A stretch of DNA of 64,000 nt from Reichenbachiella agarivorans (lineage in GTDB: Bacteria > Bacteroidota > Bacteroidia > Cytophagales > Cyclobacteriaceae). How positions within the stretch are numbered: position 1 is the stretch's first letter; each line of letters opens with the position of its first letter. The notes beneath the pieces were generated by a model. The model did not search any database. It saw only the letters and a list, made by a program, of their open reading frames with translations, and was not told where the DNA came from. The position numbers and the translations under genes were made by a program. This document shows positions 6,092 to 47,221 of this stretch, piece by piece. The stretch lies in NCBI RefSeq assembly GCF_025502585.1, contig NZ_CP106679.1:1655001-1719000 (forward strand), read 5' to 3'.

Positions 6092-9000
6092 ATGTCCGAA
6101 TTGGTCCCTCAAGTTTACGCGCCTCAAAATCACATCCGAATCGTCACCGCTGCATCGCTATTCGATGGACATGATGCCGCCATCAACATCATGCGCCGCA
6201 TCATCCAAGCTACAGGCGTAGAGGTGATTCACCTCGGACACAACCGATCCGTCGATGAGATTGTGAACTGTGCGATTCAAGAGGATGTCCAGGCCATCGC
6301 GATTACTTCTTACCAAGGAGGCCATGTGGAATATTTGAAATACATGTTTGATTTGCTCAAAGAGAAAGGCAGACCTGAGATCAAAATATTCGGAGGAGGA
6401 GGTGGTACGATACTGCCAGCAGAAATCGACGACCTCCATGCCTATGGTATCAATCGAATCTACAGTCCGGACGATGGTCGTGCGATGGGACTACAAGGTA
6501 TGATCAATGACATGATTGCGGCATGTGATTTTCCTATCGGAGAAAATGAAAACATGCCACTCGAAAGGCTCTCTCCACAAAATACACTGGATATGAGTCG
6601 ATTGATTACAGTGGTAGAGAATTTCCCAAAACAAGCTCAAGAGCTGATGGCCGACATCAAGCGCAAAGCAGATTTATCCAAAGCACCCATACTTGGTATC
6701 ACAGGCACAGGAGGTGCTGGCAAGTCATCCTTGGTAGATGAATTGGTCAGGAGGTATTTGATGGATTTTGAAGACAAAACCATAGCTATCATTTCGGTCG
6801 ATCCCTCCAAACGCAAAACGGGTGGCGCACTACTGGGCGACCGTATACGTATGAATGCCATCAACAACCCTCGGGTCTACATGCGTTCATTGGCCACACG
6901 CCAGTCTAATCTTGCCTTGTCTAGGTACGTCAATGAAGCTGTTCAGATTGTCAAAGCAGCGGGTTATGATTTGATCATATTGGAGACCAGCGGAATAGGT
7001 CAGTCAGATACCGAAATCACGGATCATTCTGATCTGGCACTCTATGTGATGACGCCTGAGTATGGTGCCGCTACCCAGTTGGAAAAAATTGATATGCTGG
7101 ATTTTGCTGATGTCATAGCACTCAACAAGTTTGATAAACGTGGTGCATTGGATGCCATCCGAGACGTCAAGAAGCAGTTTCAACGCAATCATCAGTTGTG
7201 GGATCGCCCCATCGAGGAGTTGCCTGTATTTGGCACCATTGCTTCACAGTTCAATGACCCAGGGATGAATCAACTCTATGTGCATATCATGAGGTTGTTG
7301 ACTGCACAGTTTGATCCGAGTTTTTCCCCCAAACTAGAAGTAACCCAGGATAGCTCAGAAAAAGTCTACATTATTCCTCCCAAAAGAGTTCGGTATCTCT
7401 CAGAGATCGCTGAAAGTATCAGAGAGTACGACCAATGGGTGTCTCAACAAAAGAATATTGCTCAAAACCTCTACAGCATACAAAACACAATCAATCTCTG
7501 TGACTCTAGTATCATCAATCAACTGACCGGACTCTACGAAAAGACGGCTTTGGATTTTGATCCGAGAAACAAAAAAATCATTGATGACTGGCCTCACAAG
7601 AAGGCTAACTATGATGCGAATCAATACGTCTATCATGTCCGTGGCAAAGAAATCCGTGTAGAGACTAAAACCGAGTCACTCTCCAAGACCAAGATTCCCA
7701 AAATATCCTTACCCCGATACGAGGCTTGGGGCGACATCCTCCAATGGTCACTTCAAGAGAATGTGCCAGGTGAATTCCCCTTTACGGCGGGTGTATTTCC
7801 ATTCAAGCGTGAAGGAGAAGATCCGACACGGATGTTTGCAGGAGAAGGTGGACCAGAACGAACCAATCGCAGATTTCACTACGTCTCGATGGGTTTGCCT
7901 GCTGCTAGGTTATCCACGGCCTTTGACTCGGTGACACTTTATGGTGCTGACCCAGCCATCCGTCCAGATATCTATGGTAAGATAGGCAACTCTGGTGTGA
8001 ATGTCTGCTGTCTCGATGATGCCAAAAAGCTCTATTCTGGTTTTGACTTGACCGCTCCGACCACCTCCGTATCCATGACCATCAATGGGCCTGCTGCGAC
8101 CATATGTGCCTTTTTTATGAATGCTGCCATCGATCAGCAGTGTGAAAAATACATCCAAGCACATGGCTTGGAAAAGGAAGTAGCTGCCAAAATAGCCAAG
8201 ATTTATGAGGGAAGAACCAAACCTCATTACCAAGGAGAGCTTCCTGAGGGAAATGATGGTTTAGGATTGATGCTGCTAGGAGTCACTGGTGATCAGGTTT
8301 TACCCACCGATGTGTATCAACAAATCAAAGCTGATACCCTATCCAAAATCCGTGGAACAGTGCAGGCTGACATACTCAAAGAAGATCAGGCACAAAACAC
8401 CTGCATCTTCTCAACGGAATTTTCTCTCCGTGTCATGGGTGATATGCAGCAGTATTTTATCAATCAGCAGATCCGCAATTTTTATTCCGTGTCAATTTCG
8501 GGCTACCACATCGCTGAGGCAGGTGCCAACCCTATTACCCAGCTGGCACTGACACTATCCAATGGTTTCACCTTCGTGGAATACTATGTCTCTCGTGGGA
8601 TGAATATCAATGATTTTGCACCAAATCTATCCTTCTTTTTTTCCAACGGGATTGATCCAGAGTATGCAGTGATAGGTCGAGTGGCAAGGCGTATTTGGGC
8701 CAAAGCCATGAAACTAAAATACAATGCAGATGAGCGCTCACAAAAACTCAAGTACCATATTCAAACCAGTGGCCGATCACTCCACGCACAAGAGATAGAT
8801 TTCAATGATATACGGACGACATTACAAGCCCTCTACGCTATCTATGACAATTGCAACTCACTGCATACCAATGCATATGATGAGGCCATTACCACGCCTA
8901 CCGAAGCATCGGTACGCCGTGCCATGGCGATACAGCTCATCATCAACAAAGAGTTGGGATTGACCCAAAACGAAAATCCCTTGCAAGGAGCCTTCATCAT

Positions 9001-42301: not shown

Positions 42302-42769
42302 ATGGTCACAGAAATCCTCAAATATCTCAGTATTTATCTAGGCAGTATGCTCAAAATCATGGTTGGCCCTGTACTAGGTCTGACCTATGACTACAATATT
42401 TTCATCACAGGGACGCTGACTGCACTTGGCATGATGACGAGTGTGTACCTGATCACTTTTTTTGGAGCCAATATTCGTCACTATAGTCAGGCAATCTTGA
42501 ATAGAAAACGCAAAAACATATTCTCCAAAAAGACACGTCAGTACGTGAGGATCTGGCAAAAATACGGTGTGCCTGGAATCGCCTTTCTTACCCCAGTGCT
42601 TTTCATGCCTATCGGTGGAGCAATTATCGCCAATGCCTTTGGTGGCAAAAAGGCCGACATTTTCAAATACATGTGGATCAGCAGTTTGTTTTGGTCGTAT
42701 TTCCTCGCATGGCTGGTTAGGTTCGCAGGAGACCTGCTTCCTTTTTTGGGCTTGACTGGAGGTGTATGA
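42302..42769 (+). CDS. Small integral membrane protein (unknown; small-multidrug-export-like)
   Basis: A 155-residue protein with about four hydrophobic segments (residues 12-25, 32-55, 88-112, 122-148) and a basic cytoplasmic loop RKRKNIFSKKTRQYVR. The turn GVPGIAFLTPVLFMPIGGAIIANAFGGKK, with Pro and Gly inside a membrane segment, resembles re-entrant loops of DedA/small multidrug export families, but I do not recognise it securely. It lies alone between divergent and convergent neighbours. Confidence 0.65.
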   Translation: MVTEILKYLSIYLGSMLKIMVGPVLGLTYDYNIFITGTLTALGMMTSVYLITFFGANIRHYSQAILNRKRKNIFSKKTRQYVRIWQKYGVPGIAFLTPVLFMPIGGAIIANAFGGKKADIFKYMWISSLFWSYFLAWLVRFAGDLLPFLGLTGGV

Positions 42770-42885: not shown

Positions 42886-43446
42886 TTAATGTCTGTCTTT
42901 TCTTAGGTTTTGGTAGAAGACTTTTGTTTCTGCGTATTTCTCTTGTCTTTTGATTCTTCCAGCTACACCAGCGAGGTTTAGAGAAGCCTTCATTTCCACA
43001 ACTGGCAATTGACTGATGAATCTTGCAGATACTCCTAGTGCTAGATTTTCTTTGACGTAGTATTCTGCGATTGCTGCAAAGGTGATGACGACTTTGTCTG
43101 TGTCAACCATGCCTGCTCTGGCATTGATTCCTGCGACTAGGTTCTTTGTACCTAATAAATATAGAGTAGTGTAAATGCCTGTGTAATTGGCAGAAGTAGT
43201 AAATGAATTTGAAGTGTCTGAGTTTTCTGAATTTTCATTTTTACCTAGGTAACGGTTTCTTTCATAGTAGGCCCCAACTTCGATGTCTCCAATGGTACCT
43301 GGTAGCAAGAATCCCATGGATGTACCTATGTCACCGAGTCCACGGCTAGGCATAGAGTAGAGAGAGAGTTTTAGGTCTTGTCCGAAAGTATAGTGAGTGA
43401 TAGAAACCAAGATTGAGATTGCGATAAATACTTTTAGCTTTTTCAT
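42886..43446 (-). CDS. Secreted small beta-barrel-like protein, unknown
   Basis: A 186-residue protein with a signal peptide (FIAISILVSITHYTFGQ). The rest has alternating strands with Gly/Tyr turns (GDIEVGAYYERNRYLG, GIYTTLYLLGTKNLVAGINARAG), fitting a small outer-membrane barrel. The C-terminal 25 residues turn strongly basic and helical (RIKRQEKYAETKVFYQNLRK), unusual for a barrel end. No family recognised. It is monocistronic with a strong terminator. Confidence 0.7.
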   Translation of the reverse strand: MKKLKVFIAISILVSITHYTFGQDLKLSLYSMPSRGLGDIGTSMGFLLPGTIGDIEVGAYYERNRYLGKNENSENSDTSNSFTTSANYTGIYTTLYLLGTKNLVAGINARAGMVDTDKVVITFAAIAEYYVKENLALGVSARFISQLPVVEMKASLNLAGVAGRIKRQEKYAETKVFYQNLRKDRH

Positions 43447-44070
43447 GATATTTAGATTTTGGCGTTTTGTAATTTGTTATAATTCAAAAGTCGCTCAACA
43501 AAGGCTCAATTGTAACTCGTGATTTCCGTAATTAAATCTTTGCTAGATTCTCGTATACTGGGGTATACTATTGAAAAAGGTTGATTAGGTAGGGTTTGTG
43601 TAGGTTTATCAAGCGAAAGGCTGCCGCCAAGTCCACTTCTTGTGTTTCATTTTGTGCAACATTGAGATTGTGGTAATCCTCTACACTTCACAAAATCAGC
43701 TCAATGGCGATGATCTCTATATCTCTCTCCCATGTAAGCTTTGTTCGACTCTCATGTAAACTTACTTCGGGTGTCATGTAAGCTTACATTGAGGCTCATG
43801 TAAGCTTACATGAGGGTTCAAGTAAACTTACTTCAAGGTCAAAGTAAGTTTACTTCAGAATTTTGCTTGCTACTCCGCTGAGAAACCCTCGTTTTACCCA
43901 CGATTTCGCAATTATATGATTGATTGAGGGCAGCAAGGGCTTTTCTCAATCCAGATGATAGAGTAATCGAGCCATACCAAAGGCAGATCCATCCATCACT
44001 TCCTATAAAAAAACTCTCCCCACTGTCTGAAAAATCAAAATTCTTTGCCTTGATTTCCTACCTTTACTTC
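43447..44070. other. Long noncoding region upstream of polA
   Basis: This 624-bp gap separates the divergent 43446 gene and polA. It holds the 22-bp palindrome array (43731-43862). An in-frame extension of polA back to 43924 exists but lacks any polymerase homology. No RNA gene was recognised, and apart from the array I see no clear signal. Confidence 0.6.
43731..43862. repeat. Six-unit 22-bp tandem array of GTAARYTTAC palindromes
   Basis: Six units start at 43731, 43753, 43775, 43797, 43819 and 43841, exactly 22 bp apart. Cores are GTAAGCTTtg (decayed), GTAAACTTAC, GTAAGCTTAC, GTAAGCTTAC, GTAAACTTAC and GTAAGTTTAC; three are extended as ATGTAAGCTTACAT or close variants. The stretches between cores (about 12 bp) are less conserved, often TTC or GAGG. 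The period is not a multiple of three, so it is not coding, and there are no unique spacers. It ends 208 bp before polA. Confidence 0.9.
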
Positions 44071-46884
44071 ATGAGTAAACCTGATAAAAAATTATTCCTG
44101 TTGGATGCGTATGCATTGATCTACCGTGCGCACTTTGCCTTTAGCAAGAACCCCAGAATCAATTCCAAAGGAGTCAATACCAGTGCCGTTTTTGGTTTTA
44201 TGAATTCTCTCTTGGAGATTTTGAAGAAAGAAAAGCCTACTCATATAGGTGTCGCTTTTGATACGAGCGCACCGACTTTTCGCCACATTCAGTTCCCTGA
44301 GTACAAAGCACACCGCGAAGAAACCCCCGAAGACATCCGTACAGCTACGCCGCTGATCAAGGATATCTTGAAGGCCATGAACATCCCGATTCTCTTGCTG
44401 GATGGTTTTGAGGCGGATGATATCATCGGCACGCTCGCCAAGGCTGCTGCTCGCAAGGGTTTTGAAGTATTCATGATGACACCCGACAAGGACTATGCAC
44501 AGCTGGTCGAGGAGCATATCTACCTCTACAAACCTGCCTACATGGGCAATGGTGTGGATGTATTGGGGATTCCCGAAGTGCTGGCCAAGTTTGAGATCGA
44601 AAGCGTAGATCAGGTACGTGACATCCTCGGACTGGAAGGCGATGCAGCGGACAACATCCCTGGCATCCCTGGAGTGGGCAAGAAAACCGCCATCAAGTTT
44701 CTACAACAGTATGGTTCGCTCGAAGGACTGCTTGCCAACACAGCAGAGCTCAAAGGCAAGATGAAAGAAAAGGTCGAAGAGTTCGGCGCACAAGGCATCT
44801 TGTCCAAAGAACTTGCGACCATCAAAATTGACGTACCGATTGTCTTTGACGAGGATGATTTGATCCACTGTGAACCCAACGAAGAAGCAGTCAAAAAAAT
44901 ATTTGAGGAACTGGAGTTCCGCACGATGCTCAAGCGAATCTTTGGAGAAGACAGCAGTGCTGCAACACCAGTGACAGAGGGCAAGAAAAAAACTACAGCT
45001 ACCGATACCCAACAGTTGGGACTCTTCGGAGCAGTAGAATCCAAGCCTGTACAAGAGGAAATGCCCAGCGAAAAAGGCAACATCGCGACCGTGGAGCATG
45101 AATACCACCTAATGGACTCGCCTGCACTCAGAAAATCCCTCGTCAAATACCTGCTGCTGCAGGAGGAATTTTGTTTTGATACCGAGACGACCAGCATCAA
45201 CCCTGAGGAGGCCGAATTGGTAGGGATAGCCTTTTGCTACCAAGCACACGAGGCATATTATGTGCCACTACCCGAAGATCAACAGGAAGCACAAGCCATC
45301 GTAGAGGAGTTTCGTACCGTGCTAGAAAACGAAGAGATTGTCAAGATCGGTCAGAACCTGAAATATGACATTCAGGTGATGAAAAACTATGGAGTGGAAG
45401 TCAAAGGCAAGCTCTTTGATACATTGCTGGCTCACTATCTGATTGACCCAGATTCCAGACACAAGATGGATGTGTTGGCGGAGAACTACCTGCACTACAC
45501 TTGCATCCCGATCGAAGACCTGATCGGCAAAGGCAAGTCCCAACTCAACATGCGTGACATTGATGTAGATCGGGTGGTGGATTATGCCGCAGAAGATGCT
45601 GACATCACTTTCCAACTCAAACACAAACTAGCACCCTTGATTGCAGAGAATCAATTGGAAAAACTCCTGCATGAAGTGGAAGAACCTCTGAGCATCGTGC
45701 TGGCCGACATGGAATACGCAGGCGTCAAGATCGATCTAGACGTATTGGCAGCCATGTCCAAGGACCTCAATGGACTCAGTCTCACTGCTCAAGACAAGAT
45801 ATTCGAACTAGCAGGCGTAGAATTCAACATCAACTCACCCAAGCAAATGGGAGAAATCCTCTTTGACAAAATGAAGTTGATCGAAAAACCAAAAAAGACC
45901 AAAACAGGCCAATATGCCACGGGAGAAGAAATCCTGTCCAAGCTGGCCAGTGAGCATGAGATTGCTGATCGGATATTGGAGTTTAGGGAATACCAAAAGC
46001 TGAAATCTACCTATGTAGATGCCTTGCCTCTGTTGATCAGCAAGAAAGATGGCCTGATCCATACAGACTACAGACAGGCTGTGGCTGCCACAGGCCGCTT
46101 GAGCTCCAACAATCCCAACCTACAGAATATCCCGATCCGTACGGCAAAGGGAAAAGAGATCCGAAAGGCTTTCGTCCCTAGGAGCAAGGATTTCAAAATA
46201 TTCGCAGCGGATTATTCTCAGATCGAGTTGAGGATCATTGCGGCATTCGCCAAAGACGAAAGCATGATTGATGCCTTCAAAAACGGCAGAGACATTCATG
46301 CCACTACCGCATCCAAGGTCTTCAAGGTACCCATGGAGGAGATGACTCCCGACGTGCGACGCAAGGCCAAGGAAATCAACTTCGGACTCATCTACGGTAT
46401 TTCAGCTTTTGGTCTATCCCAAAACATAGGCATCAGCCGTACCGAAGCTGCCGAGATCATAGAGGCCTACTTCAAGGAGTTTCCCGGTATCAAACGCTAC
46501 ATGGACGATACCGTCAACCAAGCCAAGGAACTGGAATACGTCGAGACCATCATGGGGCGCAGGAGATACCTGCGAGACATCAACTCTCGCAATGCAACCG
46601 TCCGTGGATTTGCCGAGCGAAACGCCATCAATGCTCCGATCCAAGGCAGTGCCGCAGACATCATCAAAGTAGCCATGATCAACATCCACGACTGGATGAA
46701 AAAGGAGAAACTCAAGTCCAAGATGACCATGCAGGTGCATGATGAATTGGTCTTTGATGCGCATGTCGACGAACTAGAGTTGCTCAAAGTCAAAGTGGAG
46801 GAATTCATGAAAAATGCCATCGCATTGGATGTACCGATGGAGATAGGAATGGGCGTAGGAGACAATTGGCTAGAGGCGCATTAA
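44071..46884 (+). CDS. polA: DNA polymerase I
   Basis: A 937-residue repair and Okazaki-fragment polymerase. ATG 44071 begins MSKPDKKLFLLDAYALIYRAHFAF, the family N-terminus; the frame upstream to 43924 is not conserved-looking. Order: 5'-3' exonuclease (DDIIGTLA, GDAADNIPGIPGVGKKTA), 3'-5' exonuclease with intact FDTETTS, then palm/fingers with ADYSQIELR (motif A), RRKAKEINFGLIYGISAFGL (O helix) and MQVHDELVFD (motif C). Proofreading residues are retained, unlike in Taq. Length is normal. Confidence 0.97.
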   Translation: MSKPDKKLFLLDAYALIYRAHFAFSKNPRINSKGVNTSAVFGFMNSLLEILKKEKPTHIGVAFDTSAPTFRHIQFPEYKAHREETPEDIRTATPLIKDILKAMNIPILLLDGFEADDIIGTLAKAAARKGFEVFMMTPDKDYAQLVEEHIYLYKPAYMGNGVDVLGIPEVLAKFEIESVDQVRDILGLEGDAADNIPGIPGVGKKTAIKFLQQYGSLEGLLANTAELKGKMKEKVEEFGAQGILSKELATIKIDVPIVFDEDDLIHCEPNEEAVKKIFEELEFRTMLKRIFGEDSSAATPVTEGKKKTTATDTQQLGLFGAVESKPVQEEMPSEKGNIATVEHEYHLMDSPALRKSLVKYLLLQEEFCFDTETTSINPEEAELVGIAFCYQAHEAYYVPLPEDQQEAQAIVEEFRTVLENEEIVKIGQNLKYDIQVMKNYGVEVKGKLFDTLLAHYLIDPDSRHKMDVLAENYLHYTCIPIEDLIGKGKSQLNMRDIDVDRVVDYAAEDADITFQLKHKLAPLIAENQLEKLLHEVEEPLSIVLADMEYAGVKIDLDVLAAMSKDLNGLSLTAQDKIFELAGVEFNINSPKQMGEILFDKMKLIEKPKKTKTGQYATGEEILSKLASEHEIADRILEFREYQKLKSTYVDALPLLISKKDGLIHTDYRQAVAATGRLSSNNPNLQNIPIRTAKGKEIRKAFVPRSKDFKIFAADYSQIELRIIAAFAKDESMIDAFKNGRDIHATTASKVFKVPMEEMTPDVRRKAKEINFGLIYGISAFGLSQNIGISRTEAAEIIEAYFKEFPGIKRYMDDTVNQAKELEYVETIMGRRRYLRDINSRNATVRGFAERNAINAPIQGSAADIIKVAMINIHDWMKKEKLKSKMTMQVHDELVFDAHVDELELLKVKVEEFMKNAIALDVPMEIGMGVGDNWLEAH

Positions 46885-47221
46885 TCAAGGACTTAGCGCT
46901 TTCTGAAAAAATGAATTTGCGTCGGATTATAAACCATTGAAATGCTTCAAAAAAAACACTTTTGTCATTTTGATGTAAGGAAACCAGCATGCAAATAATC
47001 TAAATAACAATCGTTTAGGTTTCTTCTTACATGTCAACACCATTTTTGTTGTGTTAAAATCAGCCTCTTCATCAAACCAATACACTTGAAAAGCTGCTAT
47101 TTCTTAATAGAAAGCCAGTCAGGTTTAGTACGATGGCAGAGGTAGCAAATAATTCAAATAACCCTGATTTGAATTATCAGGATTTCATATAAATTTGGTA
47201 AACTATACATTCTAACCTAAC
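46885..47221. other. Intergenic region between polA and the cytochrome gene
   Basis: A 337-bp gap. It contains a 13-bp stem (46973-46985 with 47018-47032, 2-nt bulge, 32-nt loop) whose ends are ATGTAAG and CTTACAT, the same half-sites as in the array before polA. The promoter and palindrome of the cytochrome gene lie at its 3' end. No coding potential was seen. Confidence 0.55.
47163..47197 (+). promoter_or_regulatory. Promoter with overlapping palindrome for the cytochrome c gene
   Basis: TTTG (47168-47171) and TAAATTTG (47190-47197) are separated by 18 nt, close to the Bacteroidota promoter consensus. The palindrome CCTGAT-TTGAATT-ATCAGG (47163-47181) covers the -33 element. The ATG follows at 47222. 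Confidence 0.6.

Follow-up and report, generated by a model that had tools for sequence, protein, structure and literature searches.

Upstream of polA in Reichenbachiella agarivorans, within a stretch of 64,000 nucleotides that we refer to as the window, a row of palindromes fills part of the intergenic space between polA and a divergently oriented gene (Table 1). The question that this locus raises is what such an array is for, and whether it serves the genes that flank it. An earlier note on the window took it for a protein-binding array, perhaps controlling polA or the divergent gene. In this study, we show that the window array belongs to a group of 22-bp palindromic arrays scattered over the genome, and that a link between such arrays and the genes of HU-HIG proteins, which are HU/IHF-fold proteins of the Bacteroidota, recurs across this phylum. 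Neither the further types of core nor the association with HU-HIG genes had been noticed in the earlier note.

Table 1. The array and the neighbouring genes, in window coordinates
Feature	Position	Strand
Array of six head-to-tail 22-bp units, each with the dyad centre GTAARYTTAC; unit starts 43731, 43753, 43775, 43797, 43819, 43841	43731..43862	.
Decayed outermost unit, GTAAGCTTTG	43731..43752	.
Five intact units; cores at 43756, 43778, 43800, 43822, 43844	43753..43862	.
polA, 937 aa, 89% identical to polA of Reichenbachiella agariperforans	44071..46884	+
Divergent 186-aa gene, without Pfam match	42886..43446	-
Small membrane-protein gene	42302..42769	+

RESULTS

The array and its place beside polA

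The six cores at a strict 22-bp period that had been reported are confirmed by the unit coordinates, by Tandem Repeats Finder (period 22) and by a combined detector of palindrome plus identity scanned over 27 periods, which scored the array 43.1 at period 22, the highest of 3780 control values, taken at 70 polA loci, being 29.7. The threshold of 29.4 is the 99.9% point of these controls; four of the 3780 values lie above it, at periods 16, 24, 37 and 39, and at periods 20–23 none of the 70 polA loci gave a passing score. It also holds that neither a coding repeat nor a CRISPR layout describes the array: no ORF of at least 80 aa overlaps it, which places it outside genes, and its units run head to tail with 12 bp between cores. 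What is unusual about it is the phasing and not the number of cores, of which the window contains 8 versus 5.7 expected when one mismatch is allowed (at least 8 in 18/100 shuffles). The exact core occurs at 22 places in the genome (13 for the reversed control), and the genome search for GTAARYTTAC at 22-bp spacing that the note had proposed returned four pairs, all within the window array, and none for the reversed control. Limited to this core, the same pair test was positive in two of 59 genomes, our own (G000) and G007. The half-sites that the note had likened to the array 3′ of polA do resemble it, but they belong to a single long inverted repeat (46973–47032), of which they form the outer arms, and are not 22-bp array units.

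A role of the window array in polA control is unsupported. Distances of 209 bp and 285 bp separate the array from the ATG of polA and of the divergent gene, respectively, and a passing 22-bp array within 1500 bp upstream of polA was found in only one of eight Reichenbachiella genomes, our own, so that a genus-conserved polA control element was rejected. The gene immediately before polA is a relative of the small membrane-protein gene in G002, G003 and G005, and a different one in G004 and G007; in R. agarivorans, the array and the 186-aa gene sit between the two. Homologues of the 186-aa gene are present in G002, G003 and G007 and as a second copy in our own genome. A passing 22-bp array was found at none of the five other loci of this gene that were scanned (L269 was left out), and the array was therefore also rejected as a part of the 186-aa gene; one of these loci, L265, passes at period 35, where no array is seen by eye. 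For neither polA nor its divergent neighbour did regulation by the array, as suggested in the note, find support. A different, non-palindromic repeat of 21/42 bp (GTACATGGTCG...) lies upstream of polA in R. versicolor (L068, 1040–1310). Over the 600 bp upstream of polA, G007 and R. agariperforans DSM 26134 have the same sequence.

Dispersed arrays with a fixed spacing

Searching our own genome with the core revealed GTAARYTTAC arrays also at 822, 879, 946 and 2407 kb, and a common flank of about 240 bp led to arrays with the other cores GTAACGTTAC, GTTGCGCAAC, ACCCGCGCGGGT, TCTGCGCAGA and GATATATATC. Judged by eye, nine of 11 dispersed arrays carry the core of an array beside a resident HU-HIG gene (see below); since the dispersed arrays were found through their pattern or the common flank, these matching cores may partly reflect descent. 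Two 22-bp arrays with the core TTGCGCAA, near 7.2 kb (L154, about 7200–7280) and 4260 kb (L025, 628–760, opening with one GTAAGCTTAC unit), have no counterpart among the arrays of the eight resident HU-HIG genes. HU-HIG genes with the TTGCGCAA core are present in G002. IS3-type transposase ORFs were seen by eye near several dispersed arrays (L234, L238, L154 and L014).

When the distances between successive core matches were counted up to 60 bp and without an imposed period in 36 arrays, of which 28 are HU-HIG-linked and had been chosen for their score at 22 or 23, the spacing was 22 bp in 105 of 123 cases, 44 bp in nine and 23 bp in six, with 27, 43 and 45 bp once each. Across 104 pairs of successive units, identity was 0.80–0.93 in the central 8 bp, a value raised by the selection of core matches, and 0.31–0.53 at the outer six positions. 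A spacing of 22 or 44 bp in 114/123 cases, though the spacers have drifted, is what a phased protein-binding array, as the note had suggested, would be expected to leave behind. Over 20 stretches spread evenly along our own genome (400 kb in all), the combined detector, with 27 periods and a threshold of 32, passed a single array, at period 22; it detected the 7.2-kb array, which a strict scan of these stretches had missed. No ORF of at least 90 aa overlaps 10 of our own dispersed arrays or the G007 array; the CACGTG arrays are crossed by ORFs of 125–131 aa, judged spurious by eye. The arrays are thus noncoding tandem repeats that recur at several loci with the same unit length, which is what defines a constant-length satellite.

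Linkage to HU-HIG genes

The 822-kb array has as its neighbour a gene (822306–822680) for an HU-HIG protein (PF18291, 95.7 bits, cut-off 26.2) with a predicted HU-like fold and an N-terminal hairpin (AlphaFold pLDDT 89.5, pTM 0.68). The best Foldseek matches of this model were 4fmr from Bacteroides (E 2.6e-6) and HU proteins; by sequence alone, PDB matches were weak. Of nine PF18291 matches in our own genome, one is, at a score of 29 bits, an ordinary HU. Upstream of each of the eight HU-HIG genes, 22 is the best period (8/8), with scores of 31.9–42.7, and seven different cores were distinguished by eye among these eight arrays, GATAC being common to L179 and L180 and the same outer GATA being present in L178. 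None of the nine matches lies within 1.5 kb of the window array, which shares its core with the array beside HU-HIG 822306 and was for this reason filed as a dispersed copy.

We then extended the scan to 49 full-length HU-HIG loci obtained from searches at the level of genus (22), family (18) and phylum (9), which include orthologues and are not independent; seven ordinary HU matches and five partial HU-HIG matches were left out. Period 22 passes upstream in 24 loci and downstream in eight, and period 23 upstream in one, so that 33/49 loci pass at 22 or 23 (32 without L215, a 7-bp simple repeat); every other upstream period passes in 0–2 loci. A passing 22/23-bp array is absent from 16/49, including both full-length copies of G006 and the copy of G004. 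Within the genus, the tally is 8/8 in our own genome, 5/5 in G002, 5/6 in G007, 0/1 in G004 and 0/2 in G006. In five genomes outside the family (L224–L228), three of them of one genus, the array lies just behind the HU-HIG gene; arrays being upstream or downstream, promoter autoregulation is not general. When whole loci were scanned, three of four partial HU-HIG loci passed at period 23 (L197, L200 and L201, from G004 and G006) and none of six ordinary HU loci of the genus passed at any period. The proteins of these three partial loci have 236–241 aa, and their 23-bp array reads, for example, ATGGATCG..CGATCCAT in L201. With a first, simpler detector, period 22 had been found upstream of 16/40 HU-HIG loci and downstream of 1/40, and at no period in the 70 polA loci. 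Moreover, in a replication by a new class-level search with detector and threshold unchanged, covering 23 of 31 new matches, eight of 23 loci passed at 22 or 23 (the best period in seven) and nine at 20–23; 15 had no passing 22/23-bp array. The replication arrays include new core sequences such as AACATCCGGATGTT and GAACGATCGTTC. Many HU-HIG genes have a TTTTTTAAC-type motif, noted by eye, between array and start codon (e.g., L177 near 1369 and L181 near 1192).

Covariation of core and protein

The class of the core follows the HU-HIG tree. On 32 rows, with labels set by eye, near-copies included and two members (L185 and L210) below the detector threshold, 13 changes of class are required, the minimum possible being 11; shuffled labels gave a mean of 22.6, with 13 or fewer in 0/200. 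Mean half-site distance rises from 0.06 to 0.37 and 0.59 at protein distances of <0.15, 0.15–0.5 and >0.5, and the Mantel correlation over 25 non-redundant proteins is modest (r 0.145; 116/5000 shuffles as high). In G007, an HU-HIG protein 85% identical to that of 822306 is accompanied by a GTAARYTTAC array. The upstream regions of eight pairs were compared by alignment. L214, from another genus, aligns with L174 over the array and elsewhere only in pieces of 14–16 bp, and L210 aligns with L180 over the array only, weakly (57 bp, E 0.023); over the array there is no alignment of L214 with L175 or of L210 with L179. Among paralogues (L177/L176 and L175/L174), the flanks align at 77–87% and the array is unaligned or aligned only in pieces of 20–30 bp; in pairs with a common core class (L177/L194 and L181/L199), the flank is aligned and the array wholly or partly so. 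Joint change of protein and array would be expected to produce such a pattern.

Within the L177 subfamily of eight members, four alignment columns separate the proteins with GTAAG|C from those whose half-site starts with G. Residues 12 and 14 (N and T/N vs. D and R) split exactly with C vs. G as the first half-site base, a split that rests on eight sequences, among them L185 with its array below threshold; arginine 14 is present where the half-site starts with G. Both residues are located in the loop of the N-terminal hairpin of the predicted structure, and as putative readers of the core they are a lead. The array, its period, the HU-HIG linkage and the match between core and protein clade can be read from the sequences themselves, from which each kind of array seems to be the private site of one member of the HU-HIG family.

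A flanking module and defence genes

The flank of about 240 bp is a module beside many arrays, represented by L028 1796–2041 and ten further copies in our own genome, two of them partial. It ends in the hairpin GTATGCGGA-ACTTTTG-TCCGCATAC, with a loop that some copies carry inverted. The gene that follows is oriented like the module in 10 of 11 cases, L242 being the exception. A cargo scan of eight proteins from seven copies gave strong matches to HamA, HamB, PDC-S37/Hhe-like and PDC-S06 proteins, which belong to three of the seven copies (Hachiman HamA/HamB; PDC-S37/Hhe; PDC-S06), and a weak PDC-S60 match in a NACHT protein; three of the eight proteins had no match. A copy of the module at the window array was rejected, its scores being within those of shuffles. 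In a hand-picked set of 20 from the 49 HU-HIG loci, with generic ABC and TPR matches left out, the first gene on the array side was a defence gene in five (HsdR, SspB, HsdM, Cas9 and HsdS) vs. none on the other side (one-sided Fisher p 0.024); with the generic matches counted, the numbers are 7 and 1. We regard this bias as suggestive only. Y1-transposase-like ORFs, a type (RAYT) that accompanies REP palindromes in REP/BIME elements, were seen by eye near three HU-HIG loci (L249, L255 and L259), one of the three having a Pfam Y1_Tnp match below the cut-off.

DISCUSSION

It is probable that HU-HIG homodimers bind phased dyads of their own and form a filament, both close to their gene and at a small number of distant sites between genes. 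Each homodimer would recognize its own dyad, over about 10–16 bp, and with dyads every 22 bp, about two turns of the helix, adjacent dimers would line up along a single face of the DNA and would build a short one-sided nucleoprotein filament. We infer binding, the occupancy of one dimer per unit, the filament and any effect on transcription from the arrangement described above. The array next to an HU-HIG gene may be a nucleation site or may serve self-control; since such arrays are found on either side of the gene, we give promoter control and a role in nucleation or anchoring equal weight. A few further arrays, that on the polA side included, would occupy remote intergenic sites, and the window array would be a remote copy of the cognate array of HU-HIG 822306–822680, the gene of which lies outside the window.

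It is unlikely that the arrays are bound by another sequence-specific protein, with HU-HIG as a neighbour or an architectural helper. The occurrence of arrays both upstream and downstream of HU-HIG genes and the two TTGCGCAA arrays in our own genome, for whose core there is no resident HU-HIG, would fit such a protein, but the core class tracks the HU-HIG tree, residues 12 and 14 track the core, and no second gene family is constant, by eye, beside 20 HU-HIG loci. That array and module together make up a terminal or leader part of a mobile cassette, or mark an insertion hotspot for defence genes, and serve mobility or cargo control is a possibility that we view with some doubt, and one that may hold together with HU-HIG binding. 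The orientation of the next gene, the strong defence cargo of three of seven copies together with the weakly matched NACHT protein, and the defence genes on the array side at 5/20 loci vs. none on the other are in its favour; however, the module is undetectable at the window array, the first neighbour is no defence gene at 15/20 HU-HIG arrays, the generic ABC and TPR matches turn the bias into 7 vs. 1, and no constant recombinase was seen by eye.

Slippage producing a neutral minisatellite is very improbable. The units are in tandem, and the earlier note had regarded absence from close relatives, or occurrence at unrelated loci with variable period, as signs of such an origin; the array is indeed missing upstream of polA in seven of the eight Reichenbachiella genomes, but elsewhere the period stays constant, and this argues against a minisatellite. 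Moreover, the spacing is kept although the spacers drift, a single period stands out among 27, and between genera (L214 vs. L174) the array is the conserved part. We attach hardly any credence to a transcribed array acting as tandem RNA hairpins: the predicted RNA fold is much more stable than in shuffles (z -6.84), as it would be for any dyad array, the array follows a terminator-like hairpin at some loci (by eye), and neither of two specific forms of this idea survived. An RNA family was rejected, Rfam giving no match in the window stretch and 12 related loci, and so was pairing between units, inverted inter-unit identity over 27 arrays (0.684) not being above direct identity (0.711).

Taken further, HU-HIG binding could be part of an addressed chromatin system of the Bacteroidota, an extension that we judge to have an even chance of being right. 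HU paralogues would have private palindromic addresses repeated every 22 bp, read in part by the N-terminal hairpin (residue 14 vs. the first half-site base) and placed beside their own gene and at selected loci, some at the edges of defence islands. HU is generally held to be non-specific, the textbook packer of bacterial DNA, and IHF binds single asymmetric sites; an HU-HIG clade of the HU/IHF superfamily is said to have been described by Burroughs and co-workers in 2017. The proposed partner protein is a member of this superfamily by Pfam score and predicted fold, and the phased arrays of paralogue-specific dyads that we propose would set it apart. Plasmid iterons and parC-type partition arrays are mostly direct repeats on plasmids, bound by Rep or ParR proteins. 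Like them, the arrays described here are phased and near the gene of the, in this case putative, binding protein; unlike them, they are palindromic, chromosomal and associated with HU-HIG. In the open-licence literature we found no paper on HU-HIG arrays, and the term 22-bp does not occur in the main text of PMC5771137.

A closer parallel in form is offered by bacterial satellites. Subirana and Messeguer reportedly described satellites of 22/44 nt in J Bacteriol in 2020. As given in the main text of another article of theirs, in which neither "palindrom" nor "bacteroid" nor "HU-HIG" occurs, noncoding satellites of constant length in Bacillus have units of 20–21 or 52 nt, and proteins that need a constant repeat size for polymerization on DNA are suggested to account for them (PMC8161180). 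Going by that text, the arrays described here resemble the Bacillus satellites in being noncoding and in having tandem units whose length is fixed while the sequence varies, and differ from them in a unit of 22 bp (PMC8161180). If our proposal is true, HU-HIG proteins would form a family of nucleoid proteins addressed by sequence, and would be a candidate for the protein behind fixed-length bacterial satellites.
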